64,000 bases of DNA from Hymenobacter tibetensis. GTDB taxonomy: Bacteria > Bacteroidota > Bacteroidia > Cytophagales > Hymenobacteraceae. Numbering within the stretch: position 1 is the stretch's first letter; every line of letters begins with the position of its first letter. A model generated the notes under the pieces. That model saw nothing but the letters and a program-made list of their open reading frames with translations, did no database searches and was not told the DNA's origin. Made by a program: the position numbers and the translations under genes. Below are positions 33,018 through 54,550 of the stretch, in pieces. Location: positions 3,066,001 through 3,130,000 of the forward strand of contig NZ_CP094669.1 in assembly GCF_022827545.1 (NCBI RefSeq). The letters are read 5' to 3'.

Positions 33018-34451
33018 TTATTCCGCCTGCAGCGCCGAGCCATCGGCCTGGGAATCGGCGGCCGCTAAACGAGCAGCTTCCTTGGCTAGCTTCTTTTTAC
33101 GCCAGGGCGCATCTTGCTCCCAATCGCCGGCCATGATGCAGCCGTAGGGCTGAATCTCGTCGATGGTGGTAGCCAAGTTGAAATCCGTAATCTGCTGCTT
33201 GACGTCGCTAGCATCCTTGTAGGCGCTAGGCAACTCGGAAATATCAATTTGATTGAAGTAAAACCGAGCGTCAATACCCTGGGTTTCCTCGGCAAAGAGG
33301 TCTTCTTTGGTTTGGCCAAGCTTGCTGTATTTGTGGCGGGTGCGGCTCAGGTTTCGGCCGGCCCCGTGGGGCGCGAAGCCTAGGTTGGTGCCGGTGGTGG
33401 TGCCTTCCACAATCAGAATAGGTTGGGCCATATTCAGCGGAATGATGCGTGGCCCCGTGATGTCGGGCATAAACTTCGGGTCGAGCGGCGTGGCTCCCTT
33501 GGCGTGGTAGTACAAGTCACCGTCGCGAAACACGAAATTATGCTCGTTCCAGTAGCGCTGCTGCACTGCAGCCCCAAGTTCTCTACTAATGGCCTCGTGC
33601 AGACATAGGTGATTTTGTTTGGTCCATTTCCGAACAGTTTGCAGCGCCGCCCAGTACTGCGCGCCTTCTTCTGACTCGCTGGGAATCCAAGCGTTGTGCG
33701 GGTTGGTTTCCGGCGAAAGCACCTGGCGGAATCGTTCGGCTACTTTCATGCCTTGCGTGTAGAGCGCGGCGCCTACGCCTCGGGAGCCGTGATGAGTCAC
33801 CAATACTGTGTCGCCGGTAGCACGCGAAATCCCAACGTAAAGAAAGTGGTTGCCATCACCTTGCGTGCCTAGATGCTCGCGGGCGAAGTTGAGGCTGCGC
33901 AACGAGTTGAGGAATGGATTGGTGTGAAACTCTGCCTCTATTTCTGCGGGCAACCCAAACTGCCGCTCGGGCGAGCGGCCACCAGGACCGAAATGCGTGA
34001 TTTGCTGCGCAGTGTCGAGCACGCTTTTAGGGTTCACCTTGCCCAGATTGGTTAGCATCACGGAGCAGCATATATCGGCGCTGTGCATGCCGGGGTGAAT
34101 GGCATTACGGGTAACCACAATGCCGCCGACCGGAATAGTGCCCAAAGGTCCAGCTGGGCAGGCGTCAGGCATGATGGCGCCGGCCACCACCGTTGGCGTA
34201 CGCATCAGTTGCTGCATCGACTGCCTCACGTAGTCGATGTTGGCTTGCTCCACCGCCGTGTCGGCCCGAATATTCTCATGAAAAGGCACTGGCTCGTTCA
34301 GCAAGGGCAGTTCTGGCGCAGGCCTCATGGTATCGAGGTAGGCCAACAGGGCGTCGCCTTCCAGATGGTGGGCATTGATATGCTCAAGAACTTCCTTGAA
34401 CCGCTTACCGGGCTTCAACCCCAGCGCTATTAGATCTTTGCCGGTTACCAT
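33018..34451 (-). CDS. rtcB: RtcB-family RNA ligase (divergent subtype)
   Basis: RtcB joins RNA 2',3'-cyclic phosphate or 3'-phosphate ends to 5'-OH ends using GTP and Mn. The 477-residue protein keeps GDGNHFLYVG near 198, HHGSRGVG at 220-227, HNFVFRDGD near 304 and HGAGRNLSR at 362-370, which contains the histidine that is guanylylated in studied RtcBs. The motif normally reading DIGCGM is DICCSV (126-131), so the metal-binding cysteine remains but flanking glycines are replaced; this marks a paralogous subtype. No archease, RtcA or RtcR is adjacent. It may repair cleaved tRNA or rRNA. Confidence 0.9.
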   Translation of the reverse strand: MVTGKDLIALGLKPGKRFKEVLEHINAHHLEGDALLAYLDTMRPAPELPLLNEPVPFHENIRADTAVEQANIDYVRQSMQQLMRTPTVVAGAIMPDACPAGPLGTIPVGGIVVTRNAIHPGMHSADICCSVMLTNLGKVNPKSVLDTAQQITHFGPGGRSPERQFGLPAEIEAEFHTNPFLNSLRSLNFAREHLGTQGDGNHFLYVGISRATGDTVLVTHHGSRGVGAALYTQGMKVAERFRQVLSPETNPHNAWIPSESEEGAQYWAALQTVRKWTKQNHLCLHEAISRELGAAVQQRYWNEHNFVFRDGDLYYHAKGATPLDPKFMPDITGPRIIPLNMAQPILIVEGTTTGTNLGFAPHGAGRNLSRTRHKYSKLGQTKEDLFAEETQGIDARFYFNQIDISELPSAYKDASDVKQQITDFNLATTIDEIQPYGCIMAGDWEQDAPWRKKKLAKEAARLAAADSQADGSALQAE

Positions 34452-34666
34452 AAAGGATGGATAGGGTATCGTGACGGAGTAAGTGGTTTATCGATCAGCA
34501 AGAAATGAGGGGAACCGCAGCAACCCACCAGATGCCTACGCGCCTTGGAGCACACATCAGGCTCGACAATAATAGACAAACAACTTGAACCGATACTACA
34601 AGCCTGAACTTTCTCGGTTATCTATTACTTTGTTTGCTAATACGCCTGTTCTGGGTTGAATATCTT

Positions 34667-35329
34667 ATGCTGAAAAACCTGCTGACTTTTCTGCTTCTGT
34701 TTTGTCTTACGGCTGCCGCGCCGCTAGCTCCTAGCTTCCGCATAGCCAAGCTGCACTACGGCGGCGGCGGCGACTGGTACGCCAACAAAACCTCGTTGCC
34801 CAACCTGATTCGCTACTGCAACCAGACGTTGCACACCAACATCGCGCCCGACGAGGCTACCGTGGAGCTGGATTCACCGGAGTTGCTGACATACCCGTTC
34901 GTGCACATGACGGGCCACGGCAACGTGGCTTTCACCGAAGGCGAGGCAAAAAACCTGCGGCGCTACCTTATTGGCGGGGGCTTTCTGCACATCGACGACA
35001 ATTACGGCCTCGATAAATTCATCCGGCCTGAAATGAAGAAGGTGTTTCCCGAGCTAGACTTTGTGGAGCTTCCTTTCTCCCACCCGATCTATCATCAGAA
35101 GTTCCAGTTCCCGAAGGGATTACCTAAAGTGCATGAGCACGACGCCAAGCGCCCGCAAGGTTTCGGGTTGCTCTACAAAGGACGATTGGTGTGCTTCTAC
35201 AGCTATGAGTGCGACTTAGGCAACGGCTGGGAAGACCTCGGCACCTATCCCGAAGACACACCCGCTACCCACGATGCCGCTTTGCGTATGGGGGCCAACC
35301 TCGTTACGTATGCCTTAACGCAAGACTAA
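34667..35329 (+). CDS. DUF4159 protein, secreted
   Basis: The ATG at 34667 precedes a signal peptide (LKNLLTFLLLFCLTAAAPLAPS). The 220-residue protein has the DUF4159 features: RIAKLHYGGGGDWYANKTSL at the start, HMTGHGNVAFTEGEAKNLRR near 85 and GGGFLHIDDNYGLDKFIRPE near 108, a glutamine-amidotransferase-like (ThuA/BatA-type) fold. In Bacteroidota and Planctomycetota it often accompanies MoxR-type AAA ATPase and DUF58 genes, but none are here. Function unknown. It ends before a very long hairpin. Confidence 0.85.
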   Translation: MLKNLLTFLLLFCLTAAAPLAPSFRIAKLHYGGGGDWYANKTSLPNLIRYCNQTLHTNIAPDEATVELDSPELLTYPFVHMTGHGNVAFTEGEAKNLRRYLIGGGFLHIDDNYGLDKFIRPEMKKVFPELDFVELPFSHPIYHQKFQFPKGLPKVHEHDAKRPQGFGLLYKGRLVCFYSYECDLGNGWEDLGTYPEDTPATHDAALRMGANLVTYALTQD

Positions 35330-38517: not shown

Positions 38518-39465
38518 CTACTCCAGTACCACGCCCATGGCCGAGAACTTGTCGATCCGCTGGCTGATACGTTCCTCGTGGGGCAGCGCTTCCAGTTCGT
38601 CGAGGGTTTTAAGAATGGTTTTCTTGAGGGCCTGAATCATTTTGGCGGGGTCGGTGTGCGCACCACCTAGCGGCTCCTTCACAATGCCATCCACCAGTTT
38701 GGCGCCCAGCATGTCGGTAGCGGTAAGTTTGAGGGCCTCAGCTGCCTGCTCTTTGTAATCCCAGGAGCGCCACAGAATGCTGGAACACGACTCCGGCGAA
38801 ATCACGGAATACCAAGTGTTTTCCAACATCAGCACCCGGTCACCGATGGCAATGCCCAGGGCTCCTCCGGAAGCTCCTTCGCCGATGATGACGCAGATGA
38901 CCGGCACTTTTAGCAGAAACATCTCCTTGAGATTACGCGCAATGGCTTCGCCTTGCCCTCTCTCCTCGGCCTCCAGCCCCGGAAATGCCCCCGGTGTATC
39001 TATGAGCGTGACGATGGGCTTACCGAACTTTTCAGCCAGCTTCATCAGGCGCAGCGCCTTGCGGTAGCCCTCCGGGTTGGGCATACCGAAGTTGCGAAAC
39101 TGCCGCTGCTTGGTGTTACGGCCTTTCTGCTGACCGATAAACATCACGGAGCGGCCATTTATTTCACCGAAACCACCTACCATGGCCTTGTCATCGGCCA
39201 CAGTCCGGTCGCCGTGCAATTCCACGAACTTGTCGCTCATTCCCTCGATGTAATCGAGGGTGTAGGGCCGCTCCGGGTGGCGCGAAAGTTGCACCCGCTG
39301 CCACCGGGTAAGGTTGGCGTATGTTTCCTTCTTAAGTGCTCTAATTTTGGCCTCAAGGGCCGTTACGGCGTCCGAAACGTCTACTTGGCTATCGAGAGCC
39401 AGTTGTTGCATTTCGCGGAGCTTGCCTTCGAGGGCAGCGATGGGTTGTTCGAAATCAAGGAGCAT
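38518..39465 (-). CDS. accA: Acetyl-CoA carboxylase carboxyltransferase subunit alpha
   Basis: AccA, with AccD, transfers CO2 from biotin to acetyl-CoA, making malonyl-CoA for fatty acid synthesis. The 315-residue protein has a standard N-terminal helical region ([19 protein letters not shown]), [14 protein letters not shown] near 112, the crotonase-fold [29 protein letters not shown] near 160 and [19 protein letters not shown] near 198. Length is normal. accD is not in the window. Confidence 0.97.
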
Positions 39466-39715: not shown

Positions 39716-39789
39716 GGTTCGGTAGTTCAGTCGGTTAGAATGCCGCCCTGTCACGGCGGAGGTCGCGGGTTCGAGTCCCGTCCGGACCG
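39716..39789 (+). tRNA. tRNA-Asp (anticodon GTC)
   Basis: A complete 74-nt cloverleaf. The acceptor arms are GGTTCGG at 39716-39722 and CCGGACC at 39782-39788 (one G-U pair). The anticodon stem is CCGCC/GGCGG with GTC at 39750-39752. The T-arm has the standard GGTTCGAGTCC loop sequence, and G39789 is the discriminator base. The CCA end is not encoded and must be added after transcription. A promoter precedes it and a terminator follows. Confidence 0.97.
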
Positions 39790-39917: not shown

Positions 39918-40880
39918 TTAACGGCTTGGTTGATTAGCTACGCGAGCGGCAAGGTCTTCGATTTCGGAGCGGCGGACCAGCACGGCTAGCCACTCGGCTG
40001 GAATAGCCGCCTCTCCGTAGCAAATTCCAGCCAAACCGCCGGCTACGGCACCAGTCGTGTCGGTATCGTCGCCGAGGTTGACGGCGGCCAGCACGGTTTC
40101 GGCGAAGGTATCATGGCGGAGCAGACACCAGAATGCCGCCTCTAGGGTATGCATGACGTATCCGCCGCTACGAATCACTTGCACTGGAAAATCAGCCAGC
40201 CGGCCGGTAAGCAGATACTCGAACTGCTTGATTTCAGCAGGTGGTAGGCTTAATTCTTGAAGTTGCGCCGGAACCGTTTGGCAGAGTTGGCTGTAAGCGG
40301 CAGTTGGTGTCAGGCCCGCGAGCAGGTAACGTGCCATTTCCATGTACAGAAAACAAGCAATGGCCGAGCGCACATGTCCATGCGTGATGGCCGATACGTC
40401 AGAAATCAGGGCGAAACGCTCAGTTAACGGGGCATCTGTTTGGTAGAAAGCCAGCGGCAAAATACGCATCAGAGCCCCATTGCCGTTGCTGTATTCGTCG
40501 GTACCCCCAGCTAGTAGTAGGTCATTGTCAGCCTTTAGGCGATTAATGGCCTCACGGGTGGTGATACCGATATCGAAAACACTGCCATGGGGTGTCCAAA
40601 AGTTGTGGTAGTACCACCTGCAGCAGTTCTCGGCCACCTTACCGACTGTGAAACCATCGGCTATTGCCTCAGCCAGGCAGAACGTAAGGGAAGCATCATC
40701 GGACCAAGTGCCGACGGGTTGGTTATGGGTACCGTAAGCGCGCATATGCACCACCGGGTCGAGGCGGCGGGCCGCGCGGCTTTGAAATTCCACTGGCACG
40801 CCCAACGCGTCGCCGACGGCAAGCCCAAGCAATCCAGCACGAAGTTGTAATTCTGAAGCAGCAGACATTTTACTTGCCAT
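39918..40880 (-). CDS. ADP-ribosylglycohydrolase family protein
   Basis: The 320-residue protein (an ATG three codons in is an alternative start) shows the DraG/ARH signatures: GLLGLAVGDALGVPVEF near residue 14, the metal-binding WSDDASLTFCLAEA near 58 and NLGDDTDTTGAVAGGLAG near 268. These enzymes remove ADP-ribose from arginine or other acceptors, using two Mg ions. A dinitrogenase-reductase role is unlikely since no nif structural genes are here. RNA-repair systems can contain members of this family, relevant because RtcB, RlaP and Pnkp genes lie nearby, but linkage is only positional. Confidence 0.92.
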   Translation of the reverse strand: MASKMSAASELQLRAGLLGLAVGDALGVPVEFQSRAARRLDPVVHMRAYGTHNQPVGTWSDDASLTFCLAEAIADGFTVGKVAENCCRWYYHNFWTPHGSVFDIGITTREAINRLKADNDLLLAGGTDEYSNGNGALMRILPLAFYQTDAPLTERFALISDVSAITHGHVRSAIACFLYMEMARYLLAGLTPTAAYSQLCQTVPAQLQELSLPPAEIKQFEYLLTGRLADFPVQVIRSGGYVMHTLEAAFWCLLRHDTFAETVLAAVNLGDDTDTTGAVAGGLAGICYGEAAIPAEWLAVLVRRSEIEDLAARVANQPSR

Positions 40881-41626: not shown

Positions 41627-41632
41627 AGGGCA

Positions 41633-42351: not shown

Positions 42352-43428
42352 CTATTTGGCAGCTCCGTACCACGCCCGCCGTGTCTGGATCAGCAGTAGC
42401 TCCGTGGCGGCTTTGTCGGGGGCTTCGGGCAGGCTGGACGCGGCAAAGGCAGCTTCCACCCGCTCTACTAGGGTTTCTGCTTGCTGCACTAATTCCTCGT
42501 ACTCGAACTCGCCCCGGCGGATGGCTAGCAAAAACTCCCGGTCGGGGCGACGGACCTGGAGCTGGCTGGTGAGGGCAATTTCCTCGGCCATGCGCAAGAG
42601 CCGGAACACGTGCAGCATGTTTTTGGCGTCGTAGTTTTTGCCGTGCTGTACAGTGTTCTGGTACCGCTCGGCATTGCGCTTGGCTACCCACTCGTGGTAC
42701 TCCCGAAACACCCGGCAGTAGGTGCTGTAGCCGTTGCGGTTGAAACTCAAATACGCCACCGGCTCCTCTCCTTTCGGCACCGCCGACAGCAGCACGTCCT
42801 GCGAAGTTTCCGGGTCGCGCACGAGGCCCCGGTAGCCGTGGCGGCCGTTAGGGTCCTCGTCGATGAATAAGGCGTAGAGGTCGGTGAGGTGGGGCACATT
42901 GGCTAGGCCGCACTGCGCGGCGCTGAGGCCCTGCCGGGTTAGCCACGGCTGCACTGGCTGCGCGCCGGCGCCTACGGTCACGTAACAGAAATCTAGCACC
43001 GATTTCCGGCTTGGGGGCTCGGGATGGTTGATTTTCTTGTTCAAACCTTTGGCTTTACGAATCTGCGCTACGGCATACTCGGCGAAGCTCTGCCGACAAA
43101 GCTTGGACAGAAAATTTTCGGCTCGAAATGCCTCGAACAACGGGTGGCGGTATACCACGCAGTCGGCCGGGGTGCCGAGCAGTTCCAGCACGGTGGGGTT
43201 GTTTTTGAGTAGCAACTCTACGAAGCGGCGCAGCTCGTAAAACACTTCGTCGTTGGTGGCATTGGCTACCTGCGGCACGTAATCGAGCCCATAAAACTCT
43301 TCTTCTGGCAGAATAAACACGCCTTTCAAATCGGTATCGGAGTGAGGCAGATGGGTGCCGTAGGCGCGGCTGCCGCTAATGGCTTCGAAGAGAATAAGGC
43401 CGCGCTGGCGCAGGTCGGAAATGGTCAT
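42352..43428 (-). CDS. RlaP-type nucleotidyltransferase (pol-beta superfamily), copy 1
   Basis: From ATG 43428 the protein has 358 residues. The nucleotidyltransferase core is at the N-terminus: EAISGSRAYGTHLPHSDTDL at about 12-31, with the GS motif and paired metal-binding aspartates of SDTD. The helical rest contains FVELLLKNNPTVLELLGTP and the AKGLNKKINHPEPP segment seen in the PF10127 family. That family was named RlaP (RNA-ligase-associated pol-beta) and is thought to add or edit nucleotides at broken RNA ends; this is established by genome context more than by biochemistry. A second family member is immediately upstream on the same strand (gap 70 nt). Confidence 0.85.
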   Translation of the reverse strand: MTISDLRQRGLILFEAISGSRAYGTHLPHSDTDLKGVFILPEEEFYGLDYVPQVANATNDEVFYELRRFVELLLKNNPTVLELLGTPADCVVYRHPLFEAFRAENFLSKLCRQSFAEYAVAQIRKAKGLNKKINHPEPPSRKSVLDFCYVTVGAGAQPVQPWLTRQGLSAAQCGLANVPHLTDLYALFIDEDPNGRHGYRGLVRDPETSQDVLLSAVPKGEEPVAYLSFNRNGYSTYCRVFREYHEWVAKRNAERYQNTVQHGKNYDAKNMLHVFRLLRMAEEIALTSQLQVRRPDREFLLAIRRGEFEYEELVQQAETLVERVEAAFAASSLPEAPDKAATELLLIQTRRAWYGAAK

Positions 43429-44371: not shown

Positions 44372-44902
44372 TTGCTTGAACTCTGCTGCTATTGGCTATG
44401 CCAGAAAGGCCACCAAACTGCCAATGGTCCTGGCGTTGATACCTTGGAGCTACTCCTGGTGCGACGTAACCGCTGCGGTCCGATAACGAACATGCCAAAT
44501 TTGGTGACGCACGAAATGACGCACAACGTGCAGCAGCCCAACGACGGCACTTTGCTCGGGGCCGCTATTCGGGAAGGCATGGCCGATTTTGTGACTGAGC
44601 TGGTTACTGGCTTCCTTGGTAATAACGCCCGCTTGCACGAGTACGGCAACGCCCACGAGCAGGAGTTGTGGACTGCTTTCCGCCAGGAAATGAACGGCAC
44701 CTATACCAAGAACTGGCTGGCCAACTCCGAGCAGGAGACGCCCGAAAAACCCTGTGACCTTGGCTACTACGTTGGCTATAAAATCTGCCAGGCGTATTAC
44801 ACCAAAGCGCCCAACAAAAAGCAGGCTGTAGCTGCCATGCTGACTACCAAAGATTTCCGCGTGTTTCTTGCCCAGAGTGGCTATGCATTGAAGTTTCCCT
44901 GA
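44372..44902 (+). pseudogene. Remnant of a DUF2268 putative Zn-dependent protease
   Basis: The frame encodes the C-terminal half of a DUF2268-type protease: NMPNLVTHEMTHNVQQ holds a HExxH zinc motif (His47, His51), followed by REGMADFVTELVTG and LGYYVGYKICQAYY. The usual N-terminal 120-150 residues and signal peptide are missing; upstream sequence in any frame shows only a short continuation (LELLLVRRNRCGPIT) before reaching the divergent RlaP gene. This suggests an N-terminal deletion. It could still be expressed as a short cytoplasmic protein. Confidence 0.6.
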
Positions 44903-45012
44903 TAACCCTGTCGGGCGCTCAAGCAGCAGACAAGCCGCCGGAATAAGAGGAAACTTGCGCTGTCTTCCTACCTTACGCCCCTCCATGCGCACTTCTTTAA
45001 AGTAAACTTCTT

Positions 45013-45747
45013 ATGAAGTGGATCCTAGTTCCGATGTTGGCCTTGAGCTTTCTGACCACCCCGCTCCTAGCTCAACAAACACCACCAGCCAAGCAGGAAG
45101 ACCCTTTGCGTACCGACTGGGCTAAACTCGCCCGCTATGCCGCCGCCAATCAGCAGCTACCCGCCCCCGCCGCCAACCGGCCCCGCGTGGTGCTGCTCGG
45201 CAACTCCATCACCGATTCCTGGCCCAAAGCCGACCCCACTTTTTTCGCCGACAAAACCTATGACTATGTGGGGCGGGGCATCAGCGGGCAAACTTCACCC
45301 CAGATGCTGGTACGCTTTCGGCAGGATGTATTGAACCTGCGCCCTGCCGTAGTGGCCATTCTGGCCGGCACCAATGACGTAGCCGAAAACACCGGCCCCT
45401 ACGACCCGCAAGCCACCCTCAATAACATCATGTCGATGGCGGAGCTGGCCCGGGCCAATGGGGTGCGGGTAATTCTGTGCTCGGTGCTGCCTGCCACCGA
45501 GTTTCCCTGGCGCAAAGGCTTGAGTCCGGGACCTAAGATTGTGGCCCTCAACGAGCAAATAAAAGCCTATGCCCGCCAGCAGCAGTTCACTTACCTCGAT
45601 TACCACGCCGCCATGGCCGACGCCCAGCAAGGCCTCAACTCTACTCTCGCCACCGACGGCGTGCACCCTACCCTAGCCGGCTATCAGGTGATGGGGCCTC
45701 TCTTGCAAAAAGCCGTAGCGGAAACCCTCAAGAAAAAGCAAAAGTAA
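45013..45747 (+). CDS. Secreted SGNH/GDSL-family esterase
   Basis: The 244-residue precursor has a signal peptide (KWILVPMLALSFLTTPLLAQ) and the four SGNH blocks: GNSITDSWP (Ser) near residue 61, GRGISGQT (Gly) near 86, GTNDVAEN (Asn) near 119 and DGVHPTLAGY (Asp, His) near 217. It resembles the acetylhydrolase or rhamnogalacturonan-acetylesterase-like secreted lipases of Bacteroidota, which deacetylate sugars or lipids. It leads a run of three secreted hydrolases on this strand (SGNH, M28, S41) that have separate signal peptides and are 46-141 nt apart. Confidence 0.92.
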   Translation: MKWILVPMLALSFLTTPLLAQQTPPAKQEDPLRTDWAKLARYAAANQQLPAPAANRPRVVLLGNSITDSWPKADPTFFADKTYDYVGRGISGQTSPQMLVRFRQDVLNLRPAVVAILAGTNDVAENTGPYDPQATLNNIMSMAELARANGVRVILCSVLPATEFPWRKGLSPGPKIVALNEQIKAYARQQQFTYLDYHAAMADAQQGLNSTLATDGVHPTLAGYQVMGPLLQKAVAETLKKKQK

Positions 45748-45888
45748 CTTCCTGTTCAACTGACAAGCCTTCGTAGATAGGACCTTAGCAAGTAGATGCT
45801 AGTTTCCCTCCCTTCAGAATCCAAGGAAAAATCAGCTTTTAGCTTGTAATCCTAGAAAGCGTTGCGCTTGTCTTTCTCACCCTACGCT

Positions 45889-47595
45889 ATGAACCGCCAA
45901 CCGACACTACCTGCCTTACTACTGCTCTGCACCACCACATTTTCTGCTCTTGGCCAGACAGTTGCGAAGCATGAAGGCAACCCCGGCGCTGGTAAGCCGC
46001 CGCGTTATACCGCTGCTCCCCCGGCCGCTACCATCACCGCCGCCACTATCAGTAAGTACCTGCAAGCCGTTTCCTCGGATGAGATGCAGGGCCGCAAGCC
46101 GTTCACCGTGGGCGAAGAACGCAGCACCCAGTACCTGGCCGACCAGTTCAAGCAGCTCGGCCTCAAACCTGGCCCCGATGGCAGCTACTTCCAAGCCGTG
46201 CCCATGGTGGAAATTACGGGTACTCCTGCAGCTACCATGCAAATCAAGGGCAAAAGCCAGAACCTGAGCTTCAATTACAAGACTGACTTTGTGGCTTTTA
46301 CGCAGCGTGAGCAGGAGCAAGTGCCCGTCACGAACTCGCCGCTGGTGTTTGCCGGCTACGGGGTAGTAGCGCCCGAGTACAAGTGGGACGACTACGCCGG
46401 CCTCGACGTGAAAGGCAAAACGGTGGTGATCCTCGTCAACGACCCTGGCAACGCCGGCAACGACACCACGTTCTTCAAGGGTAAGGCCATGACCTACTAC
46501 GGCCGCTGGACCTACAAATACGAGGAAGCTGCTCGCCACGGCGCGGCCGGTGTGCTGATTGTGCACGACACCAAGCCGGCCGCCTACCCCTGGTCGGTGG
46601 TGCTGAGTGGGGCCACCAGCCCGAAACTGCGCGCCCAGACGCCCAACAAAGCCGCCGATAAGTGCGCCTTAGAAGGGTGGCTGACCCTAGACGCTGCCAA
46701 GAAACTATTCCAGGCCGCCGGCCAGAACTACGACCAGCTCTACGCGGCGGCCAATAAGCCCGGCTTCCGCCCCCGCCCCCTCGGCGACCTTACCCTCACG
46801 ACCAGCATAGCCAACAAACTCCGCCGCCAGACCAGCCGCAACGTGCTGGCCGTGCTGCCTGGCACTACCCGCGCTACCGAATACATCGTCTACTCGGCTC
46901 ACTGGGACCATTTCGGCGTGGGCAAAGCCATTGCCGGCGACTCCATCTACAACGGCGCCGTGGACGATGGCACCGGCCTGGCCGCCTTGCTAAGCATCGC
47001 CGAAGCCTTCCAGAAAGCCCCGCAGAAGCCTGCTCGCAGCATTGTGTTCTTGGCCGTGACCGGCGAAGAGCAGGGGTTGCTCGGCTCGGCCTACTATGCC
47101 CAGCATCCGCCCTACCCCCTCAACAAAACCGTGGCCGACCTGAACATGGACATGCTTTGGCCCTACGGCGAGATGAAAGACCTGACCGTCATCGGCTACG
47201 GCCAATCAGAGCTAGAGGACTACGCCCACGCGGCCGCCAAAGAGCAGGACCGCTACGTGCTGCCCGACCAAACGCCTGAAACCGGCATGTTCTACCGCTC
47301 CGACCACTTCAACTTCGCCCACGTAGGCGTGCCGTCCCTCTACGCCAGCGGCGGCTTCGAGAGCCGCACCCGCGGCAAGGAATACATTGCCCAGCAGCGC
47401 CAGAACTACACCACCAACATGTACCACAAGCCCGCCGACCAGTTCGACCCGAGTTGGGACCTGTCCGGCATTGCTCAGGATGCCCAACTCTACTTCCGCG
47501 TCGGCCAGCGCCTCGCCGCCGAAATCACGTTCCCGAAGTGGCGCGCCGGCTCGGAGTTTAAAGGGGCGCGGGACAAGAGTATGGGCGGGAAGTAG
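45889..47595 (+). CDS. Secreted M28-family zinc aminopeptidase with PA domain
   Basis: From ATG 45889 the precursor has 568 residues with a signal peptide (PTLPALLLLCTTTFSALGQ). A PA-like insert is present (about 150-290; VPVTNSPLVFAGYGVVAPEY, GVLIVHD). The catalytic domain has the di-zinc ligands in YSAHWDHFG near 338, GAVDDGTGLAALL near 357, VTGEEQGLLGS near 391 and SDHFNFAHVG near 473. Such enzymes trim N-terminal residues from peptides outside the cytoplasm. The longer reading frame from 45862 adds residues before the signal and is disfavoured. Confidence 0.93.
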   Translation: MNRQPTLPALLLLCTTTFSALGQTVAKHEGNPGAGKPPRYTAAPPAATITAATISKYLQAVSSDEMQGRKPFTVGEERSTQYLADQFKQLGLKPGPDGSYFQAVPMVEITGTPAATMQIKGKSQNLSFNYKTDFVAFTQREQEQVPVTNSPLVFAGYGVVAPEYKWDDYAGLDVKGKTVVILVNDPGNAGNDTTFFKGKAMTYYGRWTYKYEEAARHGAAGVLIVHDTKPAAYPWSVVLSGATSPKLRAQTPNKAADKCALEGWLTLDAAKKLFQAAGQNYDQLYAAANKPGFRPRPLGDLTLTTSIANKLRRQTSRNVLAVLPGTTRATEYIVYSAHWDHFGVGKAIAGDSIYNGAVDDGTGLAALLSIAEAFQKAPQKPARSIVFLAVTGEEQGLLGSAYYAQHPPYPLNKTVADLNMDMLWPYGEMKDLTVIGYGQSELEDYAHAAAKEQDRYVLPDQTPETGMFYRSDHFNFAHVGVPSLYASGGFESRTRGKEYIAQQRQNYTTNMYHKPADQFDPSWDLSGIAQDAQLYFRVGQRLAAEITFPKWRAGSEFKGARDKSMGGK

Positions 47596-47641
47596 TGGAA
47601 CTCAGAACCAACCCTTCGCCCGTAATCCGCATCTTCGCTGC

Positions 47642-48685
47642 ATGAAGAACCTCGGATTACTTGTGTTCCTATTCATTGTCACGCAGGCGGCCCGCGCCCA
47701 AACTGCGCCAGCCGCACTTCCCGATTCCGTTAAGGCCTTTCTGGATAAGAGTCTGACGCTGCTGGAAACGTACTCGCTGGAGCGTGGCACTGTAGACTGG
47801 CCCCAGCTGCGCCAGACGGTCTACCAGAAAGCCCAAGGCGCCCAGTCGGTGCGGGAGTTGCTGCCGATTTATCCGTTTGTGTTCGAGCAACTCAAGGACG
47901 ACCACGGCTGGCTGACCTACAAAGGCAAAACCTACAAGTGGCGTAACCCTGCCTGTACCCCTTACGCCAACACCGTTGTAAAGGCGGCGCTGGCCAAGAA
48001 GCCGGGTGTGTTGGTGAAGATGCTGCCTGGCAACATCGGCTACGTGCAGTTGCCGGGCATCAACGCCGGGGGCAGCCTGCAAGCCATGCGCGACGCGGCC
48101 CTGGTGGTGCAAGATTCCCTGTGCCGCCTCAACCCCGATAAAGCCAAGGCCTGGATAATTGACTTGCGCCTGAACGACGGTGGAGCTATGGCTCCCATGG
48201 TGGCCGGCATCGCGCCCCTCATCGGCGACGGGTACCTGGGCGGCTTCGTTGATAAGGACGGCAAGCCCGATCAGCAGTGGTACCTCAAGCAGGGTAATTT
48301 CTACATGGATACCATGCGCGTAACCACCCTGCAAAACCGTTGTCCCGTTCGCAAAACCAATAAGCCCGTGGCCGTGCTACTCAGCGGCATGACGGCCAGC
48401 TCCGGCGAAATTGTAGCCATCAGCTTGAAAGGCCGCCCTACTACCCGCTTTTTCGGGGAGCCTACGTACGGCGCTACCACTGCCAATGAGAGCTACCGTA
48501 TTAGTGGCAACTCCTACCTGACCATTGCCGGCATGCAGGAAACCGACCGTAACAAAGTCGTGTACCGCTCCAGCATCGTGCCCGACGAGCTTGTCACCGG
48601 CGGCGACAACTTCACCGACCTAAGCAAAGACACCAAAGTAGCAGCAGCCCTGAAGTGGCTGAAAACCGCAAGAAAGACTAAATAA
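47642..48685 (+). CDS. Secreted S41-family serine peptidase
   Basis: The chosen ATG at 47642 starts a typical signal peptide (KNLGLLVFLFIVTQAARAQ); the same frame is open far upstream inside the M28 gene, but that part is only an overlapping frame. The 347-residue precursor has the C-terminal-processing-protease (tail-specific) fold: GYVQLPGIN near 137, AWIIDLRLNDGGAMAPM near 177 and the catalytic serine in SGMTASSGEIVAIS near 250. A PDZ domain is not obvious, so this is a short form. It follows the M28 gene by 46 nt. Confidence 0.87.
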   Translation: MKNLGLLVFLFIVTQAARAQTAPAALPDSVKAFLDKSLTLLETYSLERGTVDWPQLRQTVYQKAQGAQSVRELLPIYPFVFEQLKDDHGWLTYKGKTYKWRNPACTPYANTVVKAALAKKPGVLVKMLPGNIGYVQLPGINAGGSLQAMRDAALVVQDSLCRLNPDKAKAWIIDLRLNDGGAMAPMVAGIAPLIGDGYLGGFVDKDGKPDQQWYLKQGNFYMDTMRVTTLQNRCPVRKTNKPVAVLLSGMTASSGEIVAISLKGRPTTRFFGEPTYGATTANESYRISGNSYLTIAGMQETDRNKVVYRSSIVPDELVTGGDNFTDLSKDTKVAAALKWLKTARKTK

Positions 48686-48697
48686 GGTGCTTTTTCG

Positions 48698-49753
48698 TTA
48701 CGGGATGATTTTCTCGGCTTTCAGCTGCTCGAACTGATTGCGGAAGGACGTGAAGCTGTCGAGGTGCATGTCGTGGAAACCAGCGCGGCGCAGCTTATTA
48801 ACATCGAAGAAGGCATCGGCTTCCACGTTGAAGATAAAGTCGCCGAAGGGCCATTGTACTAGCTCGTCCAGGGTGTGAGATTCAAGGTTGTACTTCTGCA
48901 CCATCTGCTGCCACAACTCCGCTTTGTCGGCCATATACTCTTGCAGCGGAAATGTGATGGGCTCGGCGTATTCCACCCCGAAATACTCGGCAAACTTCGG
49001 CCACAACTGGCTCCAGCGGAAAACGTCGCCGTTGGTAACGTTGTAGATTTCTTCGCGGCATTCGTCGTGGGTCGCCACCCATTCCATGCCTTTGGCCAGC
49101 AACGTGGCATCGGTCACGTTCACGAGCACCTGATAGGCCTGTAAGCTACCCGGGAACCGGAACGGCACCTTCAATTCCTTGCACAAGCTAGCGTACACGG
49201 CAATAAGGTTAGCTAGGTTCATGGGGTTACCTACGGCAAATCCCACCACAATATCAGGTCGCACGGCCGTCCAGCTCCACTCCTTACCAGCGGACTGCTC
49301 GCGCAAAAAGTCTTCCTGGCTGTAGTAGAAGTTCGGCGGGAAATGGCGCGGATCGTTTTCCAAGGCCGGTGTCTTGTAGCGGCCAAGGTGGGCTCCGTAG
49401 GCTTTACCGCCCTGAATGAAGGTGATATGCCGGAAGTTGGGTGCTACCTGTTCCAGGCCAGTTACGAGGTTGCGCAGCAAGGCCAGGTTCACGTCCGTCT
49501 GGGCGGCCAGGGTTTTGCCTTCGATGTAGGCCGCGTAGAACACGTGCGTAACCTCGCGCAGTTGCTCGGTCTGCTTGGCTACGGCCTCTGCGTCCAGCAA
49601 ATCCAGCTGCACGTAGCGCGCTTCCGTTTCGTAGTCCAGCGCCGAAGCCGACGTAACCAGGGTGTTCCAATTGCCGGTAGAAAGCAGGTAGCTGACAGCA
49701 TTGCGGCCAATGATGCCGTTGCCGCCGACTACAAGAATGGTGTTAATAGGCAT
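48698..49753 (-). CDS. PRISE-like short-chain reductase
   Basis: The 351-residue protein is an extended short-chain dehydrogenase/reductase with the NAD(P) motif VVGGNGIIGRNAV at about 8-20. Its catalytic Lys-Tyr appear in GGKAYGAHLGRYKTP near 120, rather than the usual YxxxK, and FYYSQEDFL and RPDIVVGFAVGNPMNL follow. These features are those of the PRISE group (progesterone 5-beta-reductase/iridoid-synthase-like), enone reductases acting on 1,4-unsaturated carbonyls. The physiological substrate in bacteria is unknown. It converges on the S41 gene (12 nt between stops). Confidence 0.85.
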   Translation of the reverse strand: MPINTILVVGGNGIIGRNAVSYLLSTGNWNTLVTSASALDYETEARYVQLDLLDAEAVAKQTEQLREVTHVFYAAYIEGKTLAAQTDVNLALLRNLVTGLEQVAPNFRHITFIQGGKAYGAHLGRYKTPALENDPRHFPPNFYYSQEDFLREQSAGKEWSWTAVRPDIVVGFAVGNPMNLANLIAVYASLCKELKVPFRFPGSLQAYQVLVNVTDATLLAKGMEWVATHDECREEIYNVTNGDVFRWSQLWPKFAEYFGVEYAEPITFPLQEYMADKAELWQQMVQKYNLESHTLDELVQWPFGDFIFNVEADAFFDVNKLRRAGFHDMHLDSFTSFRNQFEQLKAEKIIP

Positions 49754-49793
49754 ACAGAAGTGGTTTTACTATCAAGAACTTAAAGCCATAGTC

Positions 49794-49885
49794 CGTCATG
49801 CAGAGGCGGAGCCGAAGCACCTCGCGTGCTTTGTCAGGTTCGTTCAGCGAAGCGGTAGAGATGCTTCGGCAAGCTCAGCATGACG
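49794..49885. repeat. Imperfect palindromic intergenic element (REP/MITE-like)
   Basis: The ends mirror each other: CGTCATGC...CCGAAGCA on the left and, read on the other strand, CGTCATGC...CCGAAGCA on the right, with differing middle bases. The 92-nt element fills the gap between two genes. It is unrelated in sequence to the element at 9941-10017. Copies elsewhere are expected but cannot be seen here. Confidence 0.6.
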
Positions 49886-49907
49886 TCCTTTCCGGTTGAA
49901 GCGTCCC

Positions 49908-50990
49908 TTAGGAGTGTGGTAGTACGGCATTCGGTGCGGCGGTAGCTACCGTATCCGCAGCTAGTTCGATTACGGAATTCAGTTGAGCTGAACCATGCAA
50001 GGCCGTTCGCAAAGAAGCAACCATCAGGTCCCAAGCACGTTGCGCGGACTCTTGGGGGCCAAAGTGGGTGAAAGCATGGTCCACGCCTTCAAATTCTTGG
50101 TGCGTGACGGTTACGCCCTGCTCACGCAATTTCTGCGCGTATTCATTGCCATCGTCGCGCAATAGGTCGTACTCGGCCGTGACGATGAGGGCTGGCGTTA
50201 GGCCGGTTAGGTCTTCGGCCAGCAACGGTGAAGCCAGCGGGTTGAGACGGTCGGCGGGACAGGGCACGTACATGTGCTTGAAAAACGAGGCCAGCTCAAC
50301 GGAAAGCACCTGCTTCTTGCGCGGTACGACGTGCTTGTGGTCGGTACGTTCGGCCAGGTTGAGCGACGGATAATCCAGAATCTGTAGCGCCAGCGCAAAC
50401 TCCTGACGCTCTTTTACCAGCAACGCCACTCCTGCCGCTATACTGCCGCCGGCGCTGTGGCCGCCAATGGCCAAGCGGCTGGCATCGTAGCCGAGTATAG
50501 CCGCTTGCTCGTGCACCCACTTCACCACCTCGTAGCATTGGTAAATGGCCGCCGGGAAGGGGTGCTCGGGGGCCAACGTGTAATCAACGTTCACCACCAG
50601 ACACTGCGCCTGATGCGCCAAATACTGGCACAGCAAATCGTCTAGCTTCGGGAAGCCAAGCACAAAGCCACCGCCGTGGAAGTTGACGTACACCGGCAGC
50701 GGCCCATTGGCAGCCTCAGGCCAGTAAAACGTGGCAGGAGCCGCGCCGTGGGTCGTAGCCACCTCCCGCTGCTCAATAGCGCGCATAGCTACTTTCGGGA
50801 AGTGCACGTTGCGGCGAGAAGCAGTGCCCTTGATGAGCTGCCGCAACAAAGCCAACCGGATACGGCCGGCTGTCGTGATACGCGCGCAATTATCTGCCTG
50901 AATAGTGTAGGGTTTGCTTCGCCAAACCCACGTGAGAAACCCGGCCGTCAGGACTGGGGTCAGTAAAAGAGCTGCTGTTTTCTTTTGCAT
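49908..50990 (-). CDS. Alpha/beta-hydrolase esterase, HSL family
   Basis: From ATG 50990 the protein has 360 residues, with an N-terminal hydrophobic segment (TAALLLTPVLTAGFLTWVW) acting as signal or membrane anchor. The hormone-sensitive-lipase family motifs are clear: the oxyanion HGGGFVLG near 113, the nucleophile in GGHSAGGSIAAG near 183, the aspartate in TAEYDLLRDDG near 275 and the histidine in GVDHAFTHFG near 305. It hydrolyses short-chain acyl esters, probably in the periplasm. The start at 51038 would add residues before the signal. Confidence 0.92.
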   Translation of the reverse strand: MQKKTAALLLTPVLTAGFLTWVWRSKPYTIQADNCARITTAGRIRLALLRQLIKGTASRRNVHFPKVAMRAIEQREVATTHGAAPATFYWPEAANGPLPVYVNFHGGGFVLGFPKLDDLLCQYLAHQAQCLVVNVDYTLAPEHPFPAAIYQCYEVVKWVHEQAAILGYDASRLAIGGHSAGGSIAAGVALLVKERQEFALALQILDYPSLNLAERTDHKHVVPRKKQVLSVELASFFKHMYVPCPADRLNPLASPLLAEDLTGLTPALIVTAEYDLLRDDGNEYAQKLREQGVTVTHQEFEGVDHAFTHFGPQESAQRAWDLMVASLRTALHGSAQLNSVIELAADTVATAAPNAVLPHS

Positions 50991-51198
50991 GAATCGGTTG
51001 CTGTTGGAAACGTCTTGGGCAGGTCTTCTAAAGGACACAAAGGCTTCGTAGTTGCGTGCTCCATCCTATCTGCCGCCCAAGCTGCGTTCATACGGAACGC
51101 AACCGAAAAGGGAAGTCGACTGTAAACACGTTTTCATCGGGCACTGGCACGATGCACCAACAATCCCATCCTCTTACCTCACAGTTGTTCAGACATTT

Positions 51199-51804
51199 AT
51201 GCTACCTGCTATAGACATCACAACTTTCTGGGATGATTCCGACTACTATACCAACCCCGCCCCCCTTACTCCAGCTATGGTCAGCCAGGCGGAAAAGCAA
51301 TTAGGCTACATGTTGCCCGACTCCTACATTCAGTTGCTGACCAGCAAGAACGGAGGTACGCCGCGCAACACGCGCTTCCCTACCGCTACCCCCACGTCCT
51401 GGGCCGACGACCACATTGCCATCAGCGGCATCTGCGGCCTTGGGGGCCAATGGGGCATTGATTCCATGGAGTTGGGCAGCAAGTTTATGCTGGAAGAGTG
51501 GGGTTACCCTCCTATCGGCATTGTGGTGGCGCAGTGCCCTTCAGCTGGTCACGATGCCGTTATGCTGGATTACCGCCGGTGCGGCGCCCAAGGTGAGCCA
51601 CAGGTCGTACACGTGAGCGTGGAGGAAGACGAGGAACCGAACATCACCTTTCTGGCAGACAATTTTCAGGAGTTTCTGGCCGGCCTGGTAAACGAGGAGC
51701 AGTTTGCGGTGGCCAGCTCCAACGATGACTTTTCTGACTTTCAGACGTTACCAGCTGCTCCAGCTAATGAAACAGCAACTGGTAGCGCCCCGGACCCAAG
51801 TTAA
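51199..51804 (+). CDS. SMI1/KNR4 (SUKH) family protein
   Basis: From ATG 51199 the 201-residue protein matches the SUKH-1 fold: PLTPAMVSQAEKQLGYMLPD, SYIQLLTSKNGG, GICGLGGQWGI, LEEWGYPPIGIVVAQCPSAG, DAVMLDYRRCG and ITFLADNFQEFLAGLV appear in the family's order. SUKH proteins are common immunity proteins to secreted nuclease toxins, though many are chromosomal orphans with other roles. No toxin, VgrG, Rhs or PAAR gene is next to it, so immunity is unproven. The acidic 45-residue C-terminal tail is variable. It converges on pnkp across a hairpin. Confidence 0.88.
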   Translation: MLPAIDITTFWDDSDYYTNPAPLTPAMVSQAEKQLGYMLPDSYIQLLTSKNGGTPRNTRFPTATPTSWADDHIAISGICGLGGQWGIDSMELGSKFMLEEWGYPPIGIVVAQCPSAGHDAVMLDYRRCGAQGEPQVVHVSVEEDEEPNITFLADNFQEFLAGLVNEEQFAVASSNDDFSDFQTLPAAPANETATGSAPDPS

Positions 51805-51925: not shown

Positions 51926-54550
51926 TTACAGCCGCGGGTCTACGGCCTCACTTTCCAGCGCCAGCACCCCGAACACACATTGGTGTACCTCACGAAGCGG
52001 AGCACCAGCTACGAATCGTTCTAGGCTTTCCACGCCGAGGGCAAACTCACGCAGGGCCAGGTTGCGCTTGGCCTTCACGGCGCGCTCCTTCAGGCGCTCC
52101 AGGTTGCCCGGCAGCAGGTAGTCGGGGCCGTAGATGATACGCAGGTATTCGCGGCCCCGGCACTTGAGGGCGGGCTGCACCAAGGTTTTAGAATTTTTCG
52201 GGATGAAGTCGTAGGGCTTAACCACCATGCCTTCGCCACCAGCGGCCGTAAGGTCGGTCCACCACTGGATGGTGGCTTCCACTTCCGCTGGGTCTTGGGT
52301 AGCGACTACGCGGTACGGCGTGGCGCGGAGCAAACCGGGGTCCTGCAGGCTGAGGGCGCGCAGGGTTTCCATATGCCAGGCGTGGTCCTTGTCGAAGTAG
52401 GTGCGGCCCTCGGTGGCGAGCAGGTGGAAAGGCGCCAACCGCAAATCGGCGAGGCTCTCCACCGGCCAGCAGTAGCGGCGGTAGGCTTCGGCGTAGTGGT
52501 CGGCGGCGGTGCGGCGGGCCGTGGTACGGGCTAGCAGGGCTTCGAGGCCGTCGATGTTGCGGGCGGTGGCTTGCTCTAGCGCGGCTTCGGCCAGGGGCAG
52601 CGCGGCGCTGGCCGCGGCCGCCACGGCGGCGTACTGGTTTTTGATTAGGTCCTGCGCTTTGGCCGACCATGGCAGCAGCTCGGCATCGAGGCAGAGCCAG
52701 TCGGTTTGGTGTTTCTCCCAAAAGCCAGCATCGGTTAGCGTTTGTTGCAACCGGGTTAGGAAGGCGCTTTCCAGGCCGGGGTCGTTGAAGAAGTTGCGAC
52801 CGGTGCGGGTGTAGCATTTGCCGGGCCCCTCGCCTACCACACCGAACCGGCGGCGCGCCACATCCTCGTCGCGGGCCAGCACCACTACTACGCGGCTGCC
52901 CATGTGCTTTTCCTCGCACACCACGCGCTCCACCCCCATCTTGCGATAGTAGTCGAAAGCCTCGGTGGGGTGCTCCAGCAAGTCGGGCAGCGGGCTGGTT
53001 TCCGTCGGCGACATGGTGGGCGGCAAGTAAAGCAGCCACTTGGGATTGAGGGCGAAGCGGCTCATCACCTCCAAAGCGGCAATGGCGTTTTCCTCCCGAA
53101 TCGTGACTGAAGGCAACAGGCGCGGCCGAATGATTTGCTTGCCTATCACGTCGCGAATGTCGAGCAGGGCGTCGTGCTGTTGCTGCGCGGTGAGGTCGGG
53201 GGTGGTTTGCGCGTTGGCGGCTGCTTGCTCCTGCTGAAGGCGCAGGTAGTTGAGCGGGCGCGTCGGCTCGCAGTAAACGCGGGCGGCGGGCACGGCTACC
53301 AGTTCCCGCTCGGGGTAACGCAAGGCCGTGAGTTGGCCGCCAAACACGCAACCGGTATCAATATCAATGGTGTTGTTGAGCCATTCCGATTCGGGAACGG
53401 GTGTGTGGCCGTACACCACCATGGCCCGGCCGCGGTACTCCAAGGCCCAATTGTAGCGGACTGGCAAGCCAAACTCGTCTATCTCGCCGGTGGTTTCGCC
53501 GAACAGCGCGAAAGACCGCACGGCGCCTGAGCCTCGCCCCTGCATGTCTTCGCGCAAGCCAGCGTGGGCCACCACCAGCTTCCCCCCGTCCAGGACATAG
53601 TGACTCACAAGCCCATCTAGAAATTGCCGCACCTGGCTCTTAAACGTGTCCGACTCAGTGGCTAGCTGCGCTAGCGTCTCGGCAAAACCGTGCTGTTCGT
53701 TTACCTTCTTGCCATTGAGGTGACGCAGCAGTTTGATGTCGTGGTTGCCGGGCACGCAGAGCGCCACCCCGTCCTGCACCATGCGCATCACCAGCCGCAG
53801 CACTGCCGGTGAAGCGGGCCCCCGGTCCACCAAGTCGCCAAGGAAAATAGCCCGGCGCCCGGCCGGTGCCGTCACACGCACGCCCAAGTCACGGACGTCC
53901 TGCACCGGCTCGGCCTCGATGGTATAGCCAAGGTCGGTGAGCAGCTGCACCAGCTCGTCGTAGCAGCCGTGCACGTCGCCGATGATGTCGAAGGGGCCGG
54001 TTTCCTGCTTGCGGTTGTTGTAGAGCGGGTCGCGCACTACGGTCGTCACGGCGTCGATTTCCTCGGGGCCGTTCAGGTGGTAGACGTGGCGGAAGCCTTC
54101 GTGCTTGAGGCTTTTGAGGCTGCGGCGCAACTGCACCCGCTGCTGCGGCACCACATGGCGGCCGAGGTGCCGACGCGCGGCCCGAGCGCGGTTGCGGCTT
54201 TCGGCCACGTGGTCAGGCACGTCAAGGATGATGGCGGTAGGCAGCACGTGGTAGTCGCGAGCCAGTTGCACCAAGGTTTTGCGGGCTTCGGGCTGCACGT
54301 TGGTAGCGTCTACCACCGTGAGCAGGCCGCGCTTGAGGCGCACGCCCACCAGATAATGCAGCAACGCAAACGCGTCAGGCGTGGCGGCTTGGTCGTTCTC
54401 ATCGTCCGCTACCAGCGCCCGGCACTGGTCCGACGACACAATTTCGGTAGGCTTAAACAGGCGCCGGGCAAACGTGCTCTTACCCGCCCCCGACGTGCCA
54501 ATGAGTAAGACTAGGGAGAGTTCGGGAAGCTTGAGGGTAGTTAGGGGCAT
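51926..54550 (-). CDS. pnkp: Polynucleotide kinase-phosphatase-ligase Pnkp (RNA repair)
   Basis: The 874-residue protein has the three-domain layout of the bacterial Pnkp of the Pnkp-Hen1 system, studied in Clostridium thermocellum. The kinase domain has the P-loop GTSGAGKST (18-26) for 5'-OH phosphorylation. The calcineurin-type phosphatase has GDVHGCYDE (191-199), FLGDLVDRG (237-245) and PGNHD (267-271) to remove 2',3'-cyclic or 3' phosphates. The adenylyltransferase-ligase domain has motif I KHMGSR with Lys548 as predicted AMP acceptor. Together they heal and seal broken RNA. The Hen1 methyltransferase gene, usually adjacent, is missing from this window. Length fits the family. Confidence 0.95.
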   Translation of the reverse strand: MPLTTLKLPELSLVLLIGTSGAGKSTFARRLFKPTEIVSSDQCRALVADDENDQAATPDAFALLHYLVGVRLKRGLLTVVDATNVQPEARKTLVQLARDYHVLPTAIILDVPDHVAESRNRARAARRHLGRHVVPQQRVQLRRSLKSLKHEGFRHVYHLNGPEEIDAVTTVVRDPLYNNRKQETGPFDIIGDVHGCYDELVQLLTDLGYTIEAEPVQDVRDLGVRVTAPAGRRAIFLGDLVDRGPASPAVLRLVMRMVQDGVALCVPGNHDIKLLRHLNGKKVNEQHGFAETLAQLATESDTFKSQVRQFLDGLVSHYVLDGGKLVVAHAGLREDMQGRGSGAVRSFALFGETTGEIDEFGLPVRYNWALEYRGRAMVVYGHTPVPESEWLNNTIDIDTGCVFGGQLTALRYPERELVAVPAARVYCEPTRPLNYLRLQQEQAAANAQTTPDLTAQQQHDALLDIRDVIGKQIIRPRLLPSVTIREENAIAALEVMSRFALNPKWLLYLPPTMSPTETSPLPDLLEHPTEAFDYYRKMGVERVVCEEKHMGSRVVVVLARDEDVARRRFGVVGEGPGKCYTRTGRNFFNDPGLESAFLTRLQQTLTDAGFWEKHQTDWLCLDAELLPWSAKAQDLIKNQYAAVAAAASAALPLAEAALEQATARNIDGLEALLARTTARRTAADHYAEAYRRYCWPVESLADLRLAPFHLLATEGRTYFDKDHAWHMETLRALSLQDPGLLRATPYRVVATQDPAEVEATIQWWTDLTAAGGEGMVVKPYDFIPKNSKTLVQPALKCRGREYLRIIYGPDYLLPGNLERLKERAVKAKRNLALREFALGVESLERFVAGAPLREVHQCVFGVLALESEAVDPRL

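Follow-up and report, generated by a model that had tools for sequence, protein, structure and literature searches.

A probable RNA-repair system of the Hen1-Pnkp type, with a pair of accessory RlaP nucleotidyltransferases, in an opened-up Hymenobacter locus

The 64,000-nucleotide stretch of Hymenobacter tibetensis DNA analyzed here (contig NZ_CP094669.1, positions 3,066,001 to 3,130,000; hereafter, the window) probably carries most of one Hen1-Pnkp RNA-repair system together with two accessory nucleotidyltransferases of the RlaP family, in the order Hen1 > Pnkp > RlaP-A > RlaP-B and in a layout that has been opened up. What we observed in its favor is gene content, kept catalytic motifs, linkage, order, orientation, and co-presence. 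An earlier inspection of the window (the original prediction) had proposed that five genes, encoding RtcB, an ADP-ribosylglycohydrolase (ARH), two RlaP-type proteins, and Pnkp, might be a loose repair island. Pfam and NCBIfam confirmed all five, with their positions and minus-strand orientation, within 21.5 kb. As a description of Pnkp, the RlaP pair, and additionally Hen1, the island stands; RtcB does not belong to it, and ARH is unproven. The genes concerned are as follows.

33018-34451, minus strand, RtcB, a divergent paralogue (PF01139, 124.8 bits)
39918-40880, minus strand, ARH (PF03747, 249 bits)
42352-43428, minus strand, RlaP-B, 358 amino acids (PF10127, 82.1 bits, profile positions 20-139)
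43499-44266, minus strand, RlaP-A, 255 amino acids (PF10127, 240.7 bits, profile positions 2-248 of 249)
51926-54550, minus strand, Pnkp, 874 amino acids (AAA_33 kinase, metallophosphoesterase, and PNKP_ligase domains in Pfam)
70734-72326 in window coordinates (G000:C1:3136734-3138326), minus strand, Hen1, 530 amino acids, past the window end

Pnkp scored 1390 bits against the NCBIfam model bacter_Pnkp (TIGR04075; cut-off, 750), and its single chain combines 5′-kinase, 2′,3′ phosphatase, and RNA ligase domains, each matching the corresponding solved domain of bacterial Pnkp. Hen1 was found via neighbor maps, which placed a protein of ∼480 amino acids upstream of Pnkp in many relatives' loci. 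In the window genome, it scored 649 bits against its NCBIfam equivalog (TIGR04074; cut-off, 340), carries both the Pnkp-associating N-domain (Hen1_L) and a methyltransferase domain, and matches solved chains of both. The genome (6.33 Mb) holds a single Hen1, on the same strand as Pnkp, 16.2 kb upstream of it and ∼7 kb beyond the window end. PNKP_ligase (one match), RlaP (two matches), and ARH (one match) are all confined to the window, and RtcB is present in three copies (four matching pieces). By hand arithmetic, the probability that Hen1, Pnkp, and the RlaP pair, as three single-copy loci, fall within 30 kb of such a genome by chance is ∼7e-5. The likely starts of RlaP-A and RlaP-B are 44266 and 43428, where close relatives start in the alignments. 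Relatives with a name assign both RlaP proteins, and with them the genome, to Hymenobacter. PADLOC returned no matches for Pnkp, RtcB, or ARH, and weak or general ones for Hen1 and a WYL protein.

In the proposed pathway, a ribotoxin would cut a tRNA or another RNA, leaving a 2′,3′-cyclic phosphate and a 5′-OH. The Pnkp kinase would phosphorylate the 5′ end, while the phosphatase would open the cyclic phosphate and remove the 3′ phosphate. RlaP-A and/or RlaP-B may then re-add nucleotides lost at the 3′ end. Hen1 would methylate the terminal 2′-O and, through its N-terminal domain, turn on the Pnkp ligase, which would seal the break and leave the same toxin unable to recut there. The kinase, phosphatase, ligase, and methylation steps are presumed from published work on Pnkp and Hen1; passages of PMC4411300 describe activation of the Pnkp ligase by the Hen1 N-domain and the resistance of repaired, methylated RNA to recutting. 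Restoration of lost nucleotides by RlaP is a prediction made in a passage of PMC7824862, and we infer here that the RlaP pair does so in the service of the Pnkp ligase.

Linkage was assessed in 73 same-genus genomes out of 119 searched; accA was searched in the 119 genomes and Hen1 in 45 of the 73. Denominators are all genomes with both genes, and one-contig counts are kept separate, as split contigs are not always callable; broken genes (RlaP-A of G039, Pnkp of G012 and G020) were each treated as a single span on the basis of coordinates alone. Of the 73 genomes, 56 have both RlaP-A and RlaP-B, on one contig and the same strand in 56/56 and with matches <1 kb apart in 48. Pnkp and RlaP-A are no more than 30 kb apart in 45/54 genomes and are co-oriented in 45/45 of these, as the original prediction would have it for these genes. 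When only one-contig genomes are considered, the count is 45/48, with three pairs far apart; the six pairs on different contigs comprise three that are apart by contig positions (G014, G021, and G033) and three that are not callable (G017, G024, and G028). Hen1, which the original prediction could not see, joins the set: it maps within 30 kb of Pnkp in 31/33 genomes, one exception being on different contigs and the other being G040 (see below). The one-contig figure is 31/32, all counted as co-oriented. Hen1 is also found within 30 kb of RlaP-A in 24/31 genomes, and the gene order Hen1 > Pnkp > RlaP-A > RlaP-B is kept. As a control, we used RlaP-B and accA (acetyl-CoA carboxylase carboxyltransferase alpha), which are 3.6 kb apart in the window and remain within 30 kb in only 16/56 genomes. 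The difference from Pnkp-RlaP-A is marked both overall (Fisher 5e-9) and for same-contig pairs (45/48 versus 16/33; Fisher 8e-6), these p-values being only indicative because the genomes are related; all tested pairs were picked for closeness in the window and thus share the same bias. When >30 kb or a contig boundary separates accA from RlaP, Pnkp stays with RlaP in 32/39 genomes and with accA in none. Presence follows the same pattern. RlaP-A and Pnkp occur together in 54 genomes, alone in 2 and 5, and neither in 12 (p 2.6e-8); the figures for Hen1 and Pnkp are 33 together, 1 and 2 alone, and 9 with neither (p 6e-7). All four genes are present in 31/45 genomes, none in 7, and part of them in 7.

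The set also exists in compact form. In G040 (Hymenobacter sp. DG25B), it is carried by a 185,052-base contig that corresponds to the circular plasmid NZ_CP010055.1, typed as mobilizable with a MOBB relaxase. Pnkp spans the start of this record, with residues 1-318 at the beginning and 320-874 at the end (L046, L275), and Hen1 and Pnkp, 179 kb apart in the linear record, are adjacent across the circular start. Hen1 is located about 80 bases upstream of Pnkp, and RlaP-A and RlaP-B follow directly downstream; Hen1 and the first Pnkp part match in more than one frame. Carriage of the compact set by a mobilizable plasmid provides a means by which its genes could move within the genus. Many plasmids carry Pnkp or RlaP relatives, co-location having been looked at in Hymenobacter sp. 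DG25B only. In another family, G261 bears a packed operon, Hen1-Pnkp-unknown-RlaP-A-RlaP-B, with overlaps or gaps of ≤20 bp; the extra gene (L108:9998-10882, minus strand) encodes a 294-amino-acid protein without a Pfam match and overlaps RlaP-A by 11 bp.

Outside Hymenobacter, RlaP-A loci were collected with an RlaP-A profile and one genome per species, and the best 80 loci of a larger set included 67 from other genera. Within 10 kb of RlaP-A, these 67 loci contain RlaP-B (31), RtcB (17), a WYL regulator (15), Hen1 (8), Pnkp (7), TROVE (6), and an Rnl-type set (1); a ligase of the RtcB, Pnkp, or Rnl type is present in 24. All detected repair partners share the RlaP-A strand (RtcB, 20/20; Pnkp, 7/7; Hen1, 8/8; TROVE, 6/6), which bears out the co-occurrence of RlaP with RtcB and Pnkp cited in the original prediction. 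Hen1 and Pnkp are jointly co-oriented with RlaP-A in seven of the 67 loci, in four gene orders, the hosts being Sporocytophaga, Desertivirga, a metagenome-assembled genome labeled Williamsia, two Chitinophaga, Agaribacillus, and Paenibacillus methanolicus. Of 395 Bacteroidota genomes, 30 contain RlaP and 9 contain PNKP_ligase, which in four cases (G139, G289, G320, and G456) is a standalone ligase. In G139, G320, and G456, RlaP-A/B lie near Rnl, Hen1, a kinase-phosphatase, and a T4-Rnl1-like ligase; of the three gene sets, that of G139 was the one analyzed with Pfam. Nine changes in the Pnkp-linked state are required on the RlaP-A tree, at least six of them forced by well-supported branches, the Pnkp label of G139 and G456 resting on a standalone Rnl ligase; the RlaP-Pnkp association therefore recurs. 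A single origin of this link was considered and is not supported by the Pnkp and RlaP-A trees.

Several further observations concern these loci. WYL-domain regulators stand beside many RlaP repair loci (e.g., L108:15571-16662 and L115:15277-16296) and are divergent from RlaP-A in 11/15 loci of other genera, while 13 Hymenobacter loci, each spanning 17-21 kb, yielded no detected WYL gene. TROVE (Ro60-like) genes occur near RlaP-A at L125:11696-13279 (G491), L152, L153, L155, L173, L190, and L191. RlaP-A/RlaP-B pairs are also found in 15/56 viral loci (L228, L231, L232, L236, L237, L239-L241, L243-L245, L247, L265, L268, and L222), 14 of them with no ligase detected and L222 with a 76-amino-acid RtcB fragment. 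Since many of these contigs are ∼40 kb, they may be prophages, and their RlaP pairs perhaps serve counter-defence.

Both RlaPs exceed the PF10127 cut-off of 23 bits and keep the GS...DxD motif plus a later acidic residue, which we take to be the Pol-beta nucleotidyltransferase signature with the corresponding residue roles. Specifically, G27, S28, D39, D41, and D72 are invariant in 46 RlaP-A sequences, and G19, S20, D31, D33, and E65 in 38 RlaP-B sequences. RlaP-B shares the nucleotidyltransferase core of RlaP-A, has a longer C-terminal part, and represents a second subfamily. AlphaFold models reached a mean predicted local distance difference test score (pLDDT) of 95.6 for RlaP-A and 91.4 for RlaP-B. 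Their nearest solved folds are Hailong HalB (among the nearest of the listed chains for both models, at 11-17% identity), the AMP-transferase DrrA (RlaP-A only), and aminoglycoside nucleotidyltransferases/adenylyltransferases; a PDB sequence search with RlaP profiles returned no matches at an E value of 0.001. Passages of PMC12657230 describe HalB as a maker of DNA oligomers and Hailong as a defence system; template-free chain making thus exists in this fold. The match between predicted models and HalB in itself tells nothing of what RlaP does. In the parts of the literature covered by our search, no measured RlaP activity is reported, and no paper joining Hymenobacter with RNA repair was found.

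That the five genes of the original prediction are parts of one repair system kept together is very unlikely. Their closeness in the window would fit this idea, as would the RtcB genes near RlaP-A in other genera and the window-type RtcB (58-61% identical) found co-oriented near RlaP-A on the same fetched stretch in seven genomes of family f25 (in one of which, G378, RlaP-B is on another contig than the RlaP-A/RtcB stretch) and co-oriented with RlaP-A in Reichenbachiella (L181). Within the genus, however, RtcB follows accA. Among the matches listed, on which all same-genus RtcB counts rest, RtcB and accA are no more than 10 kb apart in 36/37 genomes with both genes, and RtcB and RlaP-B no more than 30 kb apart in only 8/32 (21 of the 32 on one contig). 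Where accA and RlaP are apart, it accompanies accA in 22/23 genomes and RlaP in 0/23, and its presence is independent of that of RlaP-B (32/25/6/10; p 0.26). These counts omit an 85-amino-acid fragment in G017 and minor second pieces in G039 and G065 but retain a 148-amino-acid piece in G005. RtcB was therefore rejected as a member of the repair set and is a passenger of the accA block. Aligned with solved RtcB, it keeps the HGAGR histidine and the GNH residues, as well as the D..C residues, the latter within a stretch of low alignment score; these are presumably the catalytic residues.

ARH was likewise rejected as a core member. Its counts include only matches better than about 1e-56, such that G001, G014, G019, and G052 (weaker matches only) and weaker paralogues are scored as absent. 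On this basis, ARH is within 30 kb of RlaP-B in 24/49 genomes, an intermediate figure that does not differ from its linkage to accA (20/52; p 0.32). In the 33 genomes where accA and RlaP are apart, ARH goes with RlaP in 8, with accA in 2, with both in 1, and with neither in 22, and Hen1 presence is independent of ARH (p 0.72). Furthermore, phmmer with the window ARH (E value, 1e-5; distant ARHs may escape) detected none beside RlaP in the 67 loci of other genera. ARH, whose closest solved chain is 8za7_A (Lmo0067 protein), is probably loosely attached and at most an occasional neighbor. Two of the five suggested members are thus reduced to a companion of accA and a loose hanger-on, respectively.

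A further explanation, also unlikely, is synteny by inertia, in which Hen1, Pnkp, and the RlaP pair are neighbors by common descent without a functional tie. The Hymenobacter Pnkps form one clade, the interrupted spacing leaves no shared transcript in the window, and linkage has been lost in 6/54 genomes, as inertia would predict. Yet the equally close accA-RlaP-B control decayed far more than Pnkp-RlaP-A did, and the repair genes tend to be jointly present or absent. In addition, other genomes carry this set as an operon with overlapping genes, it is compact on the G040 plasmid, and the nine changes of the Pnkp-linked state (two "Pnkp" rows being the standalone Rnl ligases) argue for repeated association. 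It is also improbable that the RlaP pair is a defence or signalling enzyme, either a HalB-like oligonucleotide maker or an AMP-transferase, merely stored with repair genes. The nearest solved folds bring this explanation up, but similarity of fold is no proof of function, and no PADLOC model matches RlaP at an E value of 0.001. Every detected partner is co-oriented with RlaP-A, and these partners vary while RlaP stays.

Some observations do weigh against a Hen1-Pnkp system with accessory RlaPs. Pnkp and RlaP-A are truly apart in six genomes, namely, G067, G071, and G072 on one contig, and G014, G021, and G033, where RlaP-A is >100 kb from placeable contig ends and Pnkp is on another contig. 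Four of the six (G014, G021, G033, and G071) belong to one Pnkp clade, their separation probably reflecting one relocation; their loci (L084, L083, L082, and L081, respectively) hold Hen1-Pnkp at a distance from the RlaP pair. G070 carries its Hen1 6.2 kb from Pnkp and in the opposite orientation. Pnkp is present without either RlaP in 4/73 genomes, and the RlaP pair without Pnkp in two. Conserved linkage is partly inheritance, because same-genus genomes are related. Outside the genus, no ligase was detected within 10 kb of RlaP-A in 43/67 loci, and none of the listed genes in 30. Finally, the nearest solved folds of RlaP include no RNA-repair enzyme.

The Hen1-Pnkp system with accessory RlaPs that we favor is a variant of a known one. 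It shares the full three-domain Pnkp and the Hen1 N-domain/methyltransferase architecture with the Pnkp-Hen1 system of the Anabaena and Clostridium thermocellum type (TIGR04075, TIGR04074), to which Hymenobacter adds two RlaP nucleotidyltransferases. PMC4411300 states in one passage that the Pnkp and Hen1 genes always share one operon, a generality that the chemistry does not require and that fails in the window genome; in Hymenobacter they are mostly split by opposite-strand open reading frames (ORFs). The Pnkp1-Rnl-Hen1 complex, as presented in parts of the same paper, has the same four activities but a different gene set, which was not seen in the window; a set of this kind with a T4-Rnl1-like ligase is the one near RlaP-A/B in G139, G320, and G456. 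In the RtcB-RlaP loci of Pedobacter, Flavobacterium, and family f25, an RtcB of the window's type or another type lies near RlaP-A/B and is frequently accompanied by a WYL regulator in divergent orientation, unlike the accA-anchored RtcB and the 13 loci with no WYL gene detected in Hymenobacter. Burroughs and Aravind reportedly described RlaP in 2016 as RNA-ligase-associating Pol-beta nucleotidyltransferases found with diverse ligases. The same PF10127 members do occur here beside RNA ligases of different types, and Hymenobacter differs from the family at large in that its two subfamilies are always adjacent to each other and are linked to Hen1-Pnkp. The link of RlaP with diverse ligases is reportedly already published, and what the genus contributes is the opened-up layout and the fixed addition of two RlaPs. 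With a two-RlaP pair whose presence or absence mostly matches that of Hen1-Pnkp, the genus provides a clean test bed for the nucleotide-restoring idea and a counter-example to the rule of a shared Pnkp-Hen1 operon. Its operon, plasmid-borne, and scattered versions make up a natural series on why repair genes stay close without a common transcript.

The repair genes of the window are not the same-strand neighborhood that the original prediction had described, as seven plus-strand features are interspersed among them. The neighboring features are as follows.

32294-32995, plus strand, gene for what we take to be an RsmE-type RNA methyltransferase, directly adjoining RtcB
34634-35329, plus strand, DUF4159 gene (Pfam), between RtcB and ARH
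38518-39465, minus strand, accA (PF03255, 494 bits)
39716-39789, plus strand, tRNA-Asp (GTC) (Rfam), between accA and ARH
44372-44902, plus strand, DUF2268 protease-like gene (Pfam), between RlaP-A and Pnkp
45013-45747, plus strand, GDSL lipase (Pfam), between RlaP-A and Pnkp
45862-47595, plus strand, M28 peptidase (Pfam), between RlaP-A and Pnkp
47387-48685, plus strand, S41 peptidase (Pfam), between RlaP-A and Pnkp
within 44372-51038, minus strand, PRISE-type reductase and alpha/beta hydrolase (Pfam), between RlaP-A and Pnkp
51052-51804, plus strand, SUKH-1 (SMI1/KNR4) immunity-type gene (PF09346, 65.7 bits), between Pnkp and RlaP-A

The tRNA-Asp, the sole match of an Rfam scan at gathering cut-offs, may mark a site at which the block was broken or took up an insertion. 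In the window's lineage, the intervening opposite-strand genes prevent Hen1, Pnkp, and the RlaP pair from sharing one transcript, so that they must have separate promoters. Interruption is common in the genus. Over 31 same-contig pairs other than G040, the estimated Hen1-Pnkp gap ranges from 0.2 to 16.2 kb (0.2-1.5 kb in 15, 1.5-6 kb in 13, and >6 kb in 3), and at least one opposite-strand ORF lies in it in 28/32 fetched loci. At the compact end, this gap is 59 bp with nothing between in G055. The Pnkp-RlaP-A gap extends from a stop-start overlap (G055, G040) up to 23 kb. Across 53 loci, the gaps hold 238 ORFs in 119 protein clusters, and their content varies between genomes, including SUKH, Gp49-like, HTH, DACNV, TMEM175, and NIPSNAP genes. 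These ORFs come from a greedy picker, of which short calls may be false, and include a few Pnkp pieces and one ARH. Opposite-strand ORFs are more frequent inside gaps than outside when counted by gene (171/238 versus 260/503; p 2e-7) and by cluster (79/119 versus 180/346; p 0.007), the bias by cluster being gone for genes of ≥200 amino acids (44/69 versus 111/201; p 0.26). In a Pfam census (119 inside; 118 of 119 sampled outside, one very long ORF having been left out; 25 families shown of 88 and of 122), SUKH, HTH_3, and an IS200-type transposase were found twice each inside and were not among the listed outside families, counts that are too few for claiming enrichment.

On the Pnkp tree of Hymenobacter, in which G281 was labeled compact despite a 523-bp gap, compact and interrupted forms are intermixed, and the compact state needs at least five changes. 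(In another Pnkp tree, all H_ rows were labeled RlaP-linked though several, e.g., rows ending in b, are not; long branches in the Pnkp phylogeny are L205 and G107.) The changes between compact and interrupted forms are readable as repeated closing, transfer of compact copies, or a compact ancestor with many insertions. In G072, Hen1-Pnkp (L077) occupies the site that holds the complete set in G055 (L058), and the RlaP pair (L076) occupies the site used by the window's relatives. Parts of the set can therefore move, and such differing sites in close relatives point to movement within the genus. We tentatively consider, as a doubtful possibility, that the four repair genes serve as stable anchors between which the spaces repeatedly fill and empty, mostly with antiparallel genes and partly with conflict genes, of which SUKH immunity proteins, Gp49/HTH toxin-antitoxin-like genes, and transposases were seen in gaps. 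The locus would then switch repeatedly between a translationally coupled operon, transferable by plasmid, and a scattered form with separately expressed genes, with order and orientation held by something besides co-transcription. SUKH and Gp49/HTH toxin-antitoxin-like genes are found between or beside repair genes at, for instance, L061:17062-17511, L050:17192-17545, and L025:7553-7882.

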